Source: Ethanoligenens harbinense YUAN-3 (GTDB lineage Bacteria; Bacillota; Clostridia; Oscillospirales; Ethanoligenentaceae). From it: a stretch of 64,000 nt of DNA. Made by a program: the position numbers and the translations under genes. The notes below the pieces were generated by a model, which ran no database searches, was not told the origin of the DNA, and saw only the letters and a program-made list of their open reading frames with translations. How positions within the stretch are numbered: the first letter of the stretch is position 1; each line of letters begins with the position of its first letter. Below are positions 25,612 through 32,753 of the stretch, piece after piece. The stretch is from contig NC_014828.1 in NCBI RefSeq assembly GCF_000178115.2, positions 829,501 to 893,500 of the forward strand, given 5' to 3'.

Positions 25612-25639
25612 TTGACATCCGCCCGGAATATGTTATCAT
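25612..25639 (+). promoter_or_regulatory. sigma-A promoter of the NiCo riboswitch transcript
   Basis: TTGACA (25612-25617), 16-bp spacer, TATCAT (25634-25639). The start would be near 25646, about 35 nt before the aptamer. Confidence 0.8.
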
Positions 25640-25677
25640 ATGAATGATCTCTTTGCACTGCATATGAATCTACAGTA

Positions 25678-25772
25678 CAAACTGAGCAGGCGATGGATCC
25701 TTTTGGGGTCTGTGGGGCTGGGCCGCTTTGGCGGCAGCGGGTTTGCATCTTTGATCACACCTGCGGGACAGT
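25678..25772 (+). promoter_or_regulatory. NiCo (czcD-type) riboswitch aptamer
   Basis: Leader RNA sensing Ni2+/Co2+. It contains ACTGAGCAGGCGATGG at 25681, a GGGCCGC/GCGGCAGC hairpin in the middle, and TGCGGGACAGT at 25762-25772. These match the conserved parts of the NiCo riboswitch as I recall them, and the order of the four-way junction is kept. The ACTG at the start and the CAGT at the end form the closing stem P1. The 3' part overlaps the 5' arm of the terminator, so ligand binding should block termination. The downstream gene is a cation P-type ATPase, which fits. Confidence 0.85.
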
Positions 25773-25798
25773 GGTATGTTCCGCGGGTGTGATTTTTT
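25754..25798 (+). terminator. expression-platform terminator of the NiCo riboswitch
   Basis: ATCACACCTGCGGGA pairs with TCCGCGGGTGTGAT followed by TTTTTTAT. Its 5' arm includes the last conserved aptamer block (GCGGGACAGT), so folding of aptamer and terminator exclude each other. Confidence 0.85.
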
Positions 25799-25882
25799 AT
25801 ACCCTTTGGGGAACATACAACTGAGACTGGAGTGCCAGGGAGCTATCTTACAAGCCGGAAACGGTAAATGGAGGTAACTTTT

Positions 25883-28405
25883 ATGACAGGCAGCAAGTAC
25901 ACTGCGGCGGGACTGACTTCTGCGGAAGCCAGATCGTTACAGGAGCGGTTTGGCAAAAACGAACTCGTCCCCCAAAAGAACCAGGATTTTTTTCATAAGG
26001 CGCTGCATATTCTCAGCGAGCCGATGTTCCTGCTGCTGATTGCGGCCGCCGCGATCTATTTCATTCTGGGCGAACAGCGGGACGGGGCGGTCATGCTCCT
26101 GTTTGTCGTCGGCATGATCGGCATCGACATGACGCAGGAATGGAAGACGGACCGTACCCTTCGTGCGCTCCGGAACCTGTCCGCTCCGCGCGTCACCGTC
26201 CTGCGCGACGGCAAAGAAACGGAAATCGCCAGCGTCGATCTGGTGCCGGGCGACGTCATGCTGGTGCATGAAGGCGTGAAAATCCCGGCGGACGGCAGCA
26301 TCATCCGGTGCAGCGACCTGTGCGTGGACGAATCCACGCTGACGGGCGAAGCCGAGGGCGTGTGGAAGGTGGACCGCGCACACGCCGAACCGCCTTCCGG
26401 GTATTGGCGCAAAGATTATTGCTATGCAGGCACGCTCGTTACGCAGGGCATGGCGGAGATACTGGTGAAGGAGATCGGCGCCGCCACCGAATACGGAAAG
26501 ATCAGCGCGGACGTTGCGTCCGCTCCTCCCACTGCCTCGCCGCTGCAAAAGCAGACCGGCAGCCTTGTCAAGCTCTGCGCGGGTATCGCCGCCGTGCTGT
26601 TTGCGCTTGTCTGCGTTGTCACCTATTTCAGCATACCGGCGCGTGCGGTTGGCAGCAGGCTCATCGACAGCATCCTCGCGGGTGTCACGCTGGCCATGGC
26701 GATGATCCCGGAGGAATTTCCCGTGATTCTGACGGTCTTCCTTTCCATGGGCGCGTGGCGGCTTGCCCAAAAGAGCTCCCTTGTGCGCAAACTGCCTGCG
26801 GTGGAGACGCTCGGGGCTGTTTCCGTGCTGTGCGTGGATAAAACGGGTACCATCACGATGAACCGGATGACGGTGCAGGAGACCTGGTCGGCGAATGGCG
26901 ATGAACACGCTTTGTGTGAAGTGATGGGACTAGGCTGTGAAACCGATGCCTACGACCCGATGGAAAAGGCCATGCTTGCTCACTGTGAAAAGCTGGGTAT
27001 CACAAAAGAACAGCTTTTTGGCGGCGAGCTGATTACCGAATATGCCTTTACCAACGAGCAGAAGATGATGGGGCATGTCTGGCGGCGCGGCAGGGAAATC
27101 GTCATCGCCGCGAAAGGTTCGCCGGAACGCCTGATTACCCTCTGCGCGCTTTCCGATGACGCCCGGCAGGCTGCGGAGCAAAAAAGCGAGGAAATGTCCC
27201 GTCGGGGCCTGCGCGTTATCGCGGTAGGCGCGGCGCATCCCCGTACGGAAAGCGAGATTCCGAACCGGCTGGCAGATTGCGCCCTCACATTCCTGGGGCT
27301 GGTCGGGCTCGCCGACCCGCCCCGGGAGAGTGTCCGGAAAGACATTGCCCGCTGCCGGAAAGCAGGTATCCGCGTCGTGATGATTACCGGGGACAACGGC
27401 ATGACCGCGGCGGCCATAGCGGAAAAAGTCGGCATGCCGCACAACGGCAGAATGGTCACCGGCGATAGGCTGGAGGCGATGACGGACGGGGAACTGCAGG
27501 AAACGGTCCGGGAAGTCAGCATCTTTTCCCGCGTGGTGCCCGCGCACAAAATGCGCATCGTCAAAGCGTTCCGGGAAAACGGCGAAGTGGTCGCCATGAC
27601 AGGGGACGGCGTGAACGACGCCCCTGCGCTGAAATACGCCGATATCGGCATCGCCATGGGCAAGCGCGGGAGCGAGGTCTCCCGCGAGGCTGCCGACCTG
27701 ATCCTGATGGACGACAACTTTTCCACCATCGTAGATACCGTTGAGGACGGCCGCAGGATTTATGACAACATCCGCAAGGCGATGGGCTATGTATTCACCA
27801 TCCATATTCCCATTGCGCTGGCATCTTTGCTTGCCCCCATGCTCAGCATCCCCGCGACCGGCCTGCTGTTGCTGCCGCTCCATGTGGTGCTGCTGGAACT
27901 CATCATCGACCCGACCTGTTCCGTCGTTCTGGAGCGCCAGCCTGCGGAAAACGATATCATGGAGCGCAGGCCGCGCGATCCCAAGGGAAAACTCATCGGC
28001 GCCGGGCTGCTGGCCAAAAGCATTCTGCAGGGGCTGGCAATTTTCGCCGCGTCTTTTGGCACCTACCTCACGGTGCTGGCACAGTCCCCACAAAACGTGC
28101 CGCTTGCCCGCACGATGGGGCTTGCGATTATCATGCTTGCCAATCTGTTCCTGGTGCAGGTGAACAGTTCGGAGCGGGAGCCTGTGTTCCGCTCGGCCAG
28201 GCGGCTCGCAAAAGACCGAGTGATGTGGATCGCAAACATTGCCGTTCTTGCCGGGCTGTTCGTCATCCTTTACACGCCGCTCCATGGTTTTTTGGAGCTT
28301 TCAGCCCTCTCGGCGGCGCAGTTTTTGATGGTCGTCGGTATCTCCGCCGTGTCCGTGCTGTGGTATGAAATCTGGAAAGGCATTCAACGGGTGCGCGGAC
28401 GATAA
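25883..28405 (+). CDS. cation-translocating P-type ATPase, probably Ni/Co exporter
   Basis: An 840-residue P-type ATPase in the membrane. The actuator loop is DESTLTGEAEG, the phosphorylation site CVDKTGTITMNR, and the hinge MTGDGVNDAPALKYADIGIAMG. TM4 carries IPEEFPVILT in place of the PEGLP of calcium pumps, and I see no CPx/SPC metal motif, so it is P2-like rather than P1B. About eight to ten TM segments are visible. GGAGG 8 bp before ATG 25883 fixes the start. Control by a NiCo riboswitch implies export of Ni2+/Co2+ or related metals. The family alone would have suggested calcium or another cation. Confidence 0.88.
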   Translation: MTGSKYTAAGLTSAEARSLQERFGKNELVPQKNQDFFHKALHILSEPMFLLLIAAAAIYFILGEQRDGAVMLLFVVGMIGIDMTQEWKTDRTLRALRNLSAPRVTVLRDGKETEIASVDLVPGDVMLVHEGVKIPADGSIIRCSDLCVDESTLTGEAEGVWKVDRAHAEPPSGYWRKDYCYAGTLVTQGMAEILVKEIGAATEYGKISADVASAPPTASPLQKQTGSLVKLCAGIAAVLFALVCVVTYFSIPARAVGSRLIDSILAGVTLAMAMIPEEFPVILTVFLSMGAWRLAQKSSLVRKLPAVETLGAVSVLCVDKTGTITMNRMTVQETWSANGDEHALCEVMGLGCETDAYDPMEKAMLAHCEKLGITKEQLFGGELITEYAFTNEQKMMGHVWRRGREIVIAAKGSPERLITLCALSDDARQAAEQKSEEMSRRGLRVIAVGAAHPRTESEIPNRLADCALTFLGLVGLADPPRESVRKDIARCRKAGIRVVMITGDNGMTAAAIAEKVGMPHNGRMVTGDRLEAMTDGELQETVREVSIFSRVVPAHKMRIVKAFRENGEVVAMTGDGVNDAPALKYADIGIAMGKRGSEVSREAADLILMDDNFSTIVDTVEDGRRIYDNIRKAMGYVFTIHIPIALASLLAPMLSIPATGLLLLPLHVVLLELIIDPTCSVVLERQPAENDIMERRPRDPKGKLIGAGLLAKSILQGLAIFAASFGTYLTVLAQSPQNVPLARTMGLAIIMLANLFLVQVNSSEREPVFRSARRLAKDRVMWIANIAVLAGLFVILYTPLHGFLELSALSAAQFLMVVGISAVSVLWYEIWKGIQRVRGR

Positions 28406-28561: not shown

Positions 28562-28608
28562 TGAGAGAGTAATTAGAGTTTTTGCTAAATATAAAACAAA
28601 GGGGCAAT

Positions 28609-28911
28609 ATGTCGCTAAACACACTGTTTAAGGCGCTGGCAGACCCGACGAGGCGCAGGATCATTCTCCTGCTGCAGCAGGGCGACCTGAACGCGGGGGA
28701 GATTGCCGGTCATTTTGCAATCAGCAAACCGAGTATTTCCCGCCATCTGCACATTTTGAAAGAGGCGTCTCTGGTCTCCGATGAGCGCAGAGGCCAGAAC
28801 GTGATCTACTCGCTCAACACAACGGTCTTTCAGGATGTCATCAACTGGCTCTTCAACGCGGCCAATATTCAGGAAAAGAGTGATAACCATGAAAAAGATC
28901 CTCAAAAGTGA
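28609..28911 (+). CDS. sdpR: ArsR/SdpR-family transcriptional repressor
   Basis: A 100-residue winged-helix autorepressor. LFKALADPTRRRIILLLQQG and the recognition helix region SKPSISRHLHILKEASLV are classic ArsR/SdpR. No metal-binding CxC site is seen, which fits SdpR rather than metal sensors. It starts at ATG 28609 after AAAGGGG. It overlaps sdpI by 23 bp, the arrangement seen with SdpI immunity proteins. In Bacillus subtilis SdpR is trapped at the membrane by SdpI bound to the SDP toxin. Confidence 0.85.
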   Translation: MSLNTLFKALADPTRRRIILLLQQGDLNAGEIAGHFAISKPSISRHLHILKEASLVSDERRGQNVIYSLNTTVFQDVINWLFNAANIQEKSDNHEKDPQK

Positions 28912-29542
28912 CTGGTATATCCTGCTGATCGTGGCGGTTGGGTTTCTGTTGGGCGCGATTTTCTACCAAAAGATGCCGGCCAGGGTGCCCGTTCACTGGG
29001 ATGCCCAGGGGCATGTAAACGGATATGGAAGCCGGTTCATGGGCGCGTTCTTTTTGCCTCTGCTCAATCTGGGCGTCTACCTGCTGATGGCGGCGGCGCC
29101 GTATATCGACCCGCGCGGTTCCAATTACCGGAAGTTCAAAGGCAGCTACCAGGCCATCAAATGCCTGGTGATGGTGGCCCTGCTGTTCATTTATATCTGC
29201 ACGTCCCTCGCCGCCATCGGCATGCGGATCAATATCGCGATGGTCGTCTCAGTTGCGATTGCGTTCCTGTTTATCGTGCTTGGCAACGTGATGGGGCGCA
29301 TCCGATTCAATTACTTTGTGGGTATCCGGACACCGTGGACGCTGGCCAATGAGGAAGTCTGGCGCAAGACCCATCGCTTTGCTGCGCCTGTCTGGGTTTT
29401 GGGTGGCATTGCTATTCTGCTGTTTGCCATTTTGAGCGGAGGCATGGCCATCTGGTCCGTTATCGTGATTGCGTGTGCCGTTGCGCTCATCTGTGTTGTC
29501 TATTCCTATCTGGTGTTCCGGAAGATCGACAAGCACCGGTAA
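28889..29542 (+). CDS. sdpI: SdpI-family membrane immunity protein
   Basis: A 217-residue polytopic protein of the DUF1648/SdpI type with about six TM segments. The DUF1648 motif is RVPVHWDAQGHVNGYGSR, and the SdpI signature GIRTPWTLANEEVWRKTHR is in the C-terminal half. SdpI gives immunity to the SDP toxin and acts as signal receptor for SdpR. No sdpABC toxin genes are in the window, so the target toxin is not known and may come from other cells. Confidence 0.85.
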   Translation: MKKILKSDWYILLIVAVGFLLGAIFYQKMPARVPVHWDAQGHVNGYGSRFMGAFFLPLLNLGVYLLMAAAPYIDPRGSNYRKFKGSYQAIKCLVMVALLFIYICTSLAAIGMRINIAMVVSVAIAFLFIVLGNVMGRIRFNYFVGIRTPWTLANEEVWRKTHRFAAPVWVLGGIAILLFAILSGGMAIWSVIVIACAVALICVVYSYLVFRKIDKHR

Positions 29543-30291: not shown

Positions 30292-30508
30292 GCAGAGCGG
30301 GGAGACTGGAGAATATCCTGTAAGCGTTTTTGCCGGGCAGACATGAAATGTTTACGATTTGTCTATGGAATTCTCATGTGTTTTTGATAATTGTCGTTTA
30401 TACTGATATCAAATCAATTGTTGAGCGGAGAAAAAGCGCTTCGCTTAGATGCTCCGATCGGAATAAAGATCCATTGCCATATACAGCATGCGGAAAGGGG
30501 GACTGACC

Positions 30509-31486
30509 ATGCAGGGGTTTTCTCAACAAAGGGACGCGCTGCACTGCCGTTTCCTGTCACTGGGCACCCTGAATGAGATTGATTTGTTTGCGGAAGCGGC
30601 GGACGCACTGGCGATGGCGGAAAAACGGGTGCGGGAAATCGACGATTGCATGTCCGTTTTCAAGCCGGACAGCGACATCTTCCGATTGAATGCTTTTGCC
30701 GGACGCAAAGCGGTGGAGCTGCATCCGGAAACACTGGCGCTGCTCGCATTGGCCAAAACCATCCACGCAGAGTCGCGGGGGGCGTTTGACATCACGGTGC
30801 GCCCGCTGACGAAACTATGGGCGATTGAAAAAAACAGGGAGACCGTCCCGGCCGAGCGCGAAATCGCCCGTGCGCGGAAGCTGGTGGACAGCCGGAAGCT
30901 GGTCTGCGATGCAAAACATGCGCGCGCTTTTTTAAAGAGATCGGGGCAGGCGGTCGATCTTGGCGGTATCGCCAAAGGCTATGCCGCGGATGAAGTGAAG
31001 CGCATCCTGTCGGAAAACGGCGTGCAAAACGCGCTCATCAATCTGGGTGGAAACATCGCCGCTGTCGGCACGCGGCCTGATGGGAGCCCATGGCATATCG
31101 GCATACAGAATCCGGCGGCGGCGCGGGGCACCTATATAGCCGTGCTCTCCATTGCCGACTGCTCGGTCGTCACATCGGGCAGCAACGAGCGGTTTTTCAT
31201 ACGGGACGGCGTGCGATACCATCACATTCTTGACCCGCGCACCGGCTGGCCCGTGCAGAATGGGCTTTTGAGCGTCACCGTGGTGTGCAGGCGGTCTGTG
31301 ATAGCGGACGCGCTGTCTACCGCCCTGTTCGCAGGGGGAATGCGGTATCTTCCGCTTTTGCGCCAATATGACGCCGAAGCGGTGATCGCCACCGAACGTG
31401 GAGAACTGTATGCTACGCCGGGGCTTTCCGGCCGGTTGGAGATCGTATCGGACCAAACAGAAAAAAGGAGTCAGCGTCATGCCTAA
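30509..31486 (+). CDS. apbE: FAD:protein FMN transferase
   Basis: Attaches FMN covalently to a Thr of partner flavoproteins, using FAD. It has 325 residues. Motifs are DDCMSVFKPDSDIFRLN, RGAFDITVRPLTKLWAI, VDLGGIAKGYAADEV, INLGGNIAAVG and YHHILDPRTGWPV, all typical of ApbE. No lipobox is visible, so it may act in the cytoplasm or be exported by other means. GGAAAGGGGGACTGACC precedes ATG 30509. It overlaps the next gene by 8 bp, and that protein carries the ApbE target motif. Confidence 0.93.
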   Translation: MQGFSQQRDALHCRFLSLGTLNEIDLFAEAADALAMAEKRVREIDDCMSVFKPDSDIFRLNAFAGRKAVELHPETLALLALAKTIHAESRGAFDITVRPLTKLWAIEKNRETVPAEREIARARKLVDSRKLVCDAKHARAFLKRSGQAVDLGGIAKGYAADEVKRILSENGVQNALINLGGNIAAVGTRPDGSPWHIGIQNPAAARGTYIAVLSIADCSVVTSGSNERFFIRDGVRYHHILDPRTGWPVQNGLLSVTVVCRRSVIADALSTALFAGGMRYLPLLRQYDAEAVIATERGELYATPGLSGRLEIVSDQTEKRSQRHA

Positions 31487-32753
31487 TCGAATATCCAGAA
31501 TCCCGGTCATCCGCATCGTTCGCGCCGTTTCACAGGTTTTGTTTTTCATATTCCTGCCGGGCGTTTATTTCAGTGCCTTCAGCGGCGTGCAGCAGATCGT
31601 TCAGAGCATTCTGAACCACAGCTTCAATCCGGCGGTTTTGCTGCCGCAGATCGTTGCCACGGTGGCCGTCATTCCGCTGACGATGGTGTTGGGGCGGTTC
31701 TTTTGCGGGTGGATGTGCGCGTTTGGTTCGATGGGTGACTTCATCTATGAGATTTCCTCAAAAATCTGGAAACGCAAACCCCGCATCAGCGAGCGGCTCG
31801 ACCGTGTGCTCAAGCTGGTGAAGTATGTTTGGCTGGCGGTTCTGGTTGTGGTGGTGTGGGCGCTGGGCTCCAAACTGTTTGCGTCTGCCGACCCGTGGGA
31901 TGCGTTCGGCATGCTGTTCACGTTCGGGAAAGCGCCGGCGCTTTCTCTGGTGCTTACCACGTTGCTGCCTGCGTTTTTCCTGCTGGTGGGGATCATGGTC
32001 GGCTCGGTGTTCGTCCACCGCTTTTTCTGCCGGTATCTTTGCCCGCTGGGCGCCATTTTTGCCATCGTATCCAAAGTACGGGTGACGCATATACAAAAAG
32101 AAAGGACATCCTGCGGCAAGTGCCGCGCATGCACCAACGCATGCCCCATGGGCATTGCGCTGTATCGCAGCGACAAGGTCCGGTCCGGGGAATGCATCGC
32201 ATGCATGGCCTGTGTTGCCGTCTGCCCGCGCAAAAACGCCACGCTTGCCATTTCGGAGAGCAGTGTGCGGCCCGCGGCCGCCGGTGTGATGGCGGCCGCC
32301 GTGATGGCCGGCACGTATTATGCCGGCACGTTTTCCACCAATCTGCTGAGCAGCAATACCGCGACGGCGGCTGGTGCGGCATCTTCCGATCAGGGGAGTA
32401 CCGCGGGCAGCGCGTCCCTGGAGGGTTCACAGACTGCACCGTCGTCTTCCTCCTCGGCAGCCGCGTCCTCCCAGACATCTTCCGGCTATAAAGATGGTGT
32501 CTATCAGGGCACGGGCACAGGCTTCCGCGGCGGCACCACGACGGTTTCCGTCACTGTGCAAGACGGCAGGATAATGAGTGTGAGCACGGTTTCCACACAG
32601 GATGACACGTCGTTCTACAGCCGCGCGTATCCGACCATCACGCAGGCGATCATCCGTTCACAGTCCGCGCAGGTCGATGCCGTTTCCGGCGCTACCTACA
32701 GCAGCCGCGGCATCATGGAGGCTGTTGCCAATGCGCTGAGCAAGGCGCTGTAA
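31479..32753 (+). CDS. membrane polyferredoxin fused to FMN-binding domain
   Basis: A 424-residue NapH/NosR-like membrane protein. The N-terminal part has about five TM segments with the cysteine motifs FCGWMCAFG and FCRYLCPLG. Two 4Fe-4S sites follow (CGKCRACTNACPMG and CIACMACVAVCPRKNA). Then come another TM segment, an Ala/Ser-rich linker (about 295-335) and a C-terminal FMN-binding domain. That domain ends with DAVSGATYS, the flavinylation motif, with T406 the expected FMN acceptor. With apbE this looks like a transmembrane electron conduit from cytoplasm to an extracytoplasmic flavin. Confidence 0.9.
   Translation: MPNRISRIPVIRIVRAVSQVLFFIFLPGVYFSAFSGVQQIVQSILNHSFNPAVLLPQIVATVAVIPLTMVLGRFFCGWMCAFGSMGDFIYEISSKIWKRKPRISERLDRVLKLVKYVWLAVLVVVVWALGSKLFASADPWDAFGMLFTFGKAPALSLVLTTLLPAFFLLVGIMVGSVFVHRFFCRYLCPLGAIFAIVSKVRVTHIQKERTSCGKCRACTNACPMGIALYRSDKVRSGECIACMACVAVCPRKNATLAISESSVRPAAAGVMAAAVMAGTYYAGTFSTNLLSSNTATAAGAASSDQGSTAGSASLEGSQTAPSSSSSAAASSQTSSGYKDGVYQGTGTGFRGGTTTVSVTVQDGRIMSVSTVSTQDDTSFYSRAYPTITQAIIRSQSAQVDAVSGATYSSRGIMEAVANALSKAL

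Follow-up and report, generated by a model that had tools for sequence, protein, structure and literature searches.

The window analysed here is a stretch of 64,000 nucleotides of the Ethanoligenens harbinense YUAN-3 genome, in which a riboswitch leader precedes a P-type ATPase gene. The features of the leader and the gene are the following.

25612–25639, + strand: sigma-70-like promoter TTGACA-16-TATCAT with TG ahead of the -10 (pattern scan, 11/12 matches; shuffles 0.4)
25647–25663, + strand: 5' block ATCTCTTTGCACTGCAT where the transcript is predicted to start, kept in the majority of ATPase leaders and in about ten CDF ones
25672–25773, + strand: NiCo aptamer RF02683 (77 bits; 26 pairs covarying in 39 leaders)
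25673–25684, + strand: CAGU-ACAA-ACUG hairpin rivalling aptamer helix P1 (predicted fold; aptamer pairs)
25753–25794, + strand: intrinsic terminator, 18 pairs then a T run, which excludes helices P4 and P1 (covariation, 39 leaders)
25774–25818, + strand: post-terminator stem, GTATGTTCC at 25774–25782 (3' arm of the terminator) with GGAACATAC at 25810–25818
25839–25881, + strand: hairpin over the ribosome-binding site, 25839–25847 with 25873–25881, enclosing the inner hairpin CCG-GAAA-CGG at 25855–25864
25868–28405, + strand: P-type ATPase, open frame of 845 residues, probably 840 from 25883 (alignment A1 of 58)
25870–25874, + strand: ribosome-binding site GGAGG, 8 nt ahead of ATG 25883 (sequence)
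26705–26722, + strand: TM4 motif IPEEFP, residues 280–285 (E283 in 86/86, E282 in 85/86)
26837–26851, + strand: phosphorylation motif DKTGT (sequence)
27803–27811, + strand: TM5 HIP (H646, P648; both in 85/86), where P2A pumps have the Asn of N-x-G-E (P2A alignment)
27896–27919, + strand: TM6 ELIIDPTC (E677, D681, C684), where P2A pumps have N-x-x-T-D (P2A alignment)

The leader had been annotated initially as a NiCo riboswitch, to be checked against the Rfam covariance model. The cmscan search confirmed the assignment: RF02683 matches in full length (model positions 1–96) at 25672–25773 of the + strand with 77.0 bits, far over the gathering threshold of 37, and an E-value of 3.8e-16. This is the sole NiCo copy in the 3.0-Mb single-contig genome, and a chance match is ruled out by the 77 bits together with the recurrence described below. 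All four helices of the RF02683 aptamer are present with covariation. Across 39 ATPase leaders the 26 aptamer pairs are formed in 92.8% of cells and 11 of them changed on both sides (0/500 shuffles), a covariation that exceeds both shuffles and slides. The overlap claimed at the same time between the 3' part of the aptamer and a strong terminator was likewise found, as the 3' arms of helices P4 and P1 constitute the 5' arm of the terminator. The terminator is 89.4% paired in the 39 leaders, with seven pairs changed on both sides, and it too covaries beyond shuffles and slides. The rival hairpin engages ACUG 25681–25684, which in aptamer helix P1 pairs with CAGU 25769–25772. Aptamer and terminator are mutually exclusive, and therefore the sequence alone supports the usual ON logic, from which we infer the ON behaviour. 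The riboswitch is thus an ordinary member of its class, resembling the NiCo (czcD) riboswitch of Furukawa et al. 2015, as reviews describe it, in the full aptamer, the terminator sharing its 3' arms, the ON logic and the position ahead of a cation exporter. The leader differs in driving an IPEEFP P-type ATPase and in adding conserved stems past the terminator, outside the Rfam model.

Two such elements follow the terminator. In the post-terminator stem the longest match averages 6.15 nt in the leaders' own combinations and 5.44 nt in swapped ones (0/2000 swaps), and the stem changes on both sides, for example TGTTCT/AGAACA and TGTTTC/GAAACA. A block (G)AGTGCCATAGAGCTATC is common to most ATPase leaders in the stretch from the terminator to the start codon, and it recurs in two CDF leaders (L119 and L120). 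The ribosome-binding site pairs with the tail of this block, as AGAGCUAUC/GGUAACUUUU in one group and as AGAGAAAUC/GGAUUCUUUU in another. Pairs of this second hairpin were counted in own versus swapped combinations, leaving out MAFFT alignment A4, which was misaligned in the inner loop; the 26 haplotypes, their relatedness retained, form 7.27 of 9 pairs, compared with 6.52 when swapped (0/20000) and at most 5.4 when slid. The inner hairpin is present but variable in sequence. The two elements suggest a second, translational layer of control, and a translational gate acting after read-through would be a reasonable reading of them. Even chances are given to the alternative that the hairpin is a mere translation damper or stability element, outside any switch. 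The hairpin is strong in the window at 37 °C, with pair probabilities of 0.60–0.98 save for one C.A mismatch, as a damper would be; however, it would be opened by pairing of the conserved 5' and 3' blocks, which are complementary at GCACU/AGUGC and CUCU/AGAG. This long-range pairing is plausible, although near-invariance of the 5' block leaves it with weak covariation, and there are CDF leaders that have the 5' block and no 3' block. The elements suggest that some metal riboswitches may act at two steps.

The 5' block was also noted elsewhere. The CTCTTTGC(A/G)CTGCA block, or a near variant, stands at the presumed transcript start of CDF leaders L114–L116, L119, L120, L126, L131, L136, L140 and L143, also where the 3' block is missing. 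Its ACUG is a possible partner for the CAGU in the competing hairpin.

The ATPase probably starts at ATG 25883, behind the GGAGG, rather than at 25868. Membership of the P-type superfamily is evident from DKTGT, TGE and GDGVND, the E1-E2 domain and the TIGR01494 score (282 vs 62 bits). The motif reported initially for TM4, IPEEFP with neither CPx nor SPC, is indeed present at residues 280–285 of a protein that carries DKTGT. The best specific NCBIfam models are the Ca2+ models of P2A, all of which stay under their cut-offs (TIGR01522, 504 vs 798 bits; TIGR01116, 409 vs 703 bits). Of the Ca2+ site of P2A pumps (PEGLP, Asn/Glu in TM5, Asn and Asp in TM6), only one Glu of TM4 and the Asp of TM6 are kept. 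Neither does the protein fit the heavy-metal P1B group, having IPEEFP in place of CPx/SPC and scoring 236 vs 346 bits with TIGR01525, nor the FUPA23 (CtpE) group, whose TM4 motif is VPEGL (PMC5615198). The closest solved sequences are LMCA1, SPCA1 and SERCA, and a fold search returned SPCA1, LMCA1, SERCA and Na,K-ATPase. The AlphaFold model (pLDDT 80.8) has the P2-family fold, which by itself is compatible with Ca2+/Mn2+. The genome encodes 11 P-type ATPases, and IPEEFP occurs in the NiCo-led one only; the other ten comprise three P1B (CPC/CPS), four PEGL(P) P2A-like, two PEGL/PKGL and Kdp. No NiCo leader precedes the only CDF gene of the genome.

Homologous loci with 54–73% identity were collected from public genomes, giving 77 loci. 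A NiCo riboswitch lies upstream in 63 of them (50 by core pattern, four of these also scored by Rfam, and 13 further by Rfam) and one more is masked by Ns; the 13 loci without it comprise eight archaeal and a few bacterial ones. A sample independent of the gene comprised 391 genomes of the window's class, covered by a riboswitch search and a separate search for DNA encoding IPEEFPV. Here 17 of 20 IPEEFP genes are located ~1 kb behind a NiCo riboswitch. Conversely, the 56 NiCo places of these genomes precede 17 IPEEFP ATPases, 37 CDF genes (PF01545), one decayed gene and one sub-threshold match, and none of the 56 precedes a P1B pump. The decayed case (L123, ~500–1400) has a full NiCo riboswitch ahead of a frame with early stops. 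The pairing of riboswitch and pump, repeated in many anaerobic bacteria, suggests that the whole branch, a little-studied one within the calcium-pump family, exports toxic transition metals, not calcium.

The leaders of the three NiCo-less IPEEFP genes in the 391-genome sample gave no Rfam match. In two of these genomes (G064 and G089) a palindrome, TATCAATTGATA, occurs exactly twice, once ahead of the IPEEFP ATPase and once ahead of a CDF gene. A genome of the same genus, G036, in which no IPEEFP pattern match was found, also contains it twice, once within a coding frame and once ~90 nt ahead of a CDF gene, so that five of the six sites in the three genomes precede a CDF gene or an IPEEFP ATPase. 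The third exception, G267, has TTATCATTTGATAA ahead of its ATPase. The palindrome is presumed to be a protein operator, as judged from few genomes of one genus. Since it stands before ATPase and CDF genes where NiCo is missing, two unrelated regulators join the same two gene types. A Fur-type box, which has a 7-1-7 arrangement of half-sites, was weighed as a reading of TATCAATTGATA and set aside, because the half-sites of the palindrome are ordered differently and no regulator gene adjoins it in G064 or G089. In G064 (L228, 1795–10720) three P-type ATPases stand in a row, the IPEEFP gene flanked by MgtA-like and PacL-like ones, and a gene that by eye is MntP/YtaF-like adjoins the three. Upstream of the NiCo-less ATPase of G267 (L232, 9566–10213) lies a GntR-type regulator with an apparent RCK_C (TrkA_C) domain, again by eye.

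A 99-protein tree, obtained by a quick method and with long branches, separates ordinary P2A pumps from the IPEEFP family with a support of 100; the family is joined on its side by PxEF/IP relatives from Nostoc, Sphingobium, Paraburkholderia and Chryseobacterium. Domain order, TM helices and nearest solved folds are those of P2A Ca2+/Mn2+-ATPases (PMR1/SPCA, LMCA1, SERCA; TIGR01522, TIGR01116), whereas the membrane motifs are not. TM4 reads IPEEFP against IPEGLP/IPEALS in P2A, TM5 H-x-P against N-x-G-E, and TM6 E-x-x-I-D-P-T-C against N-x-x-T/N-D. Near-invariant in the family are IPEEFP in TM4, H646-x-P648 in TM5, and E677 and D681-P682-T-C684 in TM6, at places that read PEGLP, N-x-G-E and N-x-x-T-D in the P2A alignment; the TM5 Asn/Glu and the TM6 Asn of P2A are replaced by His, Ile and Glu. 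The Glu-Glu pair of TM4, the TM5 His and the Glu/Asp/Cys of TM6 form a predicted site that would suit a transition metal, with these side chains as putative ligands. It is tentatively proposed, at somewhat below even odds, that the IPEEFP/HxP/ExxxDPxC clade may be a distinct, undescribed P-type subfamily for first-row transition metals whose leaders carry a second, translational gate. In that case Clostridia would possess, in this clade, a counterpart of CzcD that is powered by ATP. Archaeal MAGs of Bathycorpusculum and Nitrososphaerota (L015, L028, L032, L047, L056, L063, L067 and L073) carry the ATPase without NiCo, and those archaeal ATPases that were placed in the tree sit within the clostridial clade; lateral transfer with the riboswitch left behind is a probable origin of these copies.

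The riboswitch, the terminator overlap, the recurrent linkage, the distinct clade and the conserved residues were obtained by computation. The best overall explanation, to which a probability of about 0.76 is assigned, is a pump for the export of divalent transition metals under the control of an ON riboswitch of the NiCo class. When metal is lacking, the CAGU/ACUG hairpin would hold helix P1 open and the terminator at 25753–25794 would halt transcription. With metal (Ni2+, Co2+ or, according to some published work, Fe2+), the aptamer would keep the 5' arm of the terminator, polymerase would read through, and in the resulting RNA the downstream GGAACATAC would capture the 3' arm of the terminator. 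The product would be a P-type ATPase of a clade outside P2A, taking the role that CDF (CzcD) exporters have behind other NiCo riboswitches. The NiCo leader is common to CDF exporters and IPEEFP ATPases, as is TATCAATTGATA in one genus, although the CDF proteins are of unrelated fold and are not ATP-driven. The proposed role is that of the P1B-4 Co2+/Fe2+ ATPases (CzcP, PfeT/FrvA); unlike those, the pump lacks SPC/CPx and its best models are P2A, not P1B. Since riboswitch class and unrelated operator both tie the pump to CDF genes, its substrate would bear on the cognate metal of NiCo riboswitches in cells. The literature searched, which covers the work of Furukawa et al. and of Xu and Cotruvo through reviews, contains no mention of 'IPEEFP', and as far as it goes the novelty lies in the pump clade, its second operator and the additional elements of the leader. 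A clade annotated as 'cation-translocating' or calcium-like thereby acquires a testable substrate class and named residues to mutate.

Pump and CDF share a regulon, and the regulon evidence does not separate Fe2+ from Co2+/Ni2+. Fe(II) is abundant in anaerobic settings, and the sampled hosts are largely anaerobic. A narrower form of the best explanation, in which riboswitch and pump serve Fe(II) homeostasis and Ni/Co binding is incidental, is about as probable as not. According to reviews, Ni2+/Co2+ binding was the first property described for the class, a response to Fe(II) was added later, and there is debate over its cognate metal (PMC7689651, PMC11477304, PMC9294342). The Fe(II) response is credited to Xu and Cotruvo in reviews, which also state that a PfeT-like P1B pump of Listeria, also NiCo-controlled (PMC7689651), gives Fe(II) resistance (PMC7689651, PMC11477304, PMC12593503). 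The predicted His/Glu/Asp sets suit Fe(II); however, Co2+ and Ni2+ fit identical ligand sets, the original report found Ni/Co binding, as reviews summarize it, and an iron-gene neighbourhood is absent, with one FeoB in 68 neighbours. The initial annotation had proposed a Ni/Co-responsive role for a P-type subgroup usually taken as calcium-like or unassigned. The metal-responsive part of that proposal is supported, given 17/20 genes, the sharing with CDF and the second operator, but its Ni/Co specificity is contested by the Fe(II) response (PMC7689651, PMC11477304, PMC9294342). That the pump specifically detoxifies Ni2+ and Co2+ agrees with the first description of the class, as cited in reviews, and with the co-regulated CDF genes; it is nevertheless the unlikelier form, because buffered anaerobic affinities set against estimated cellular metal availability leave, in the account of PMC7689651, no metals but Fe(II) and Mn(II) that could bind inside cells. 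An ordinary Ca2+ or Mn2+ P2A pump brought under a metal riboswitch is very improbable: LMCA1, SPCA1 and SERCA are the top sequence and fold matches and TIGR01522 is the best specific model, though under cut-off, but the Ca2+-site residues are replaced, the clade is separate from P2A, the genome has separate PEGLP pumps, and ATPases beside Mn-riboswitch-like matches read AIPEGLP, a weak contrast as those matches are below cut-off. They come from a search of 146 genomes, in which all Mn-riboswitch matches stayed under the curated cut-off and the readable TM4 of the adjoining ATPases was AIPEGLP. The Mn2+ (yybP-ykoY) riboswitch with its YoaB-type ATPase is a similar arrangement, a metal riboswitch ahead of a P-type ATPase, in which the RNA differs.

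No metal theme was found among the gene neighbours or operon partners of the IPEEFP ATPases, and the operon partners in some loci are a methyltransferase or ATC_hydrolase. Directly behind the ATPase of the window, an ArsR-family regulator is followed by an SdpI/DUF1648 membrane protein (28582–29542). Further downstream, an ApbE flavin transferase adjoins an Fe-S/FMN-binding membrane protein (30488–32753), and the two are probably a flavin-based electron-transfer pair.
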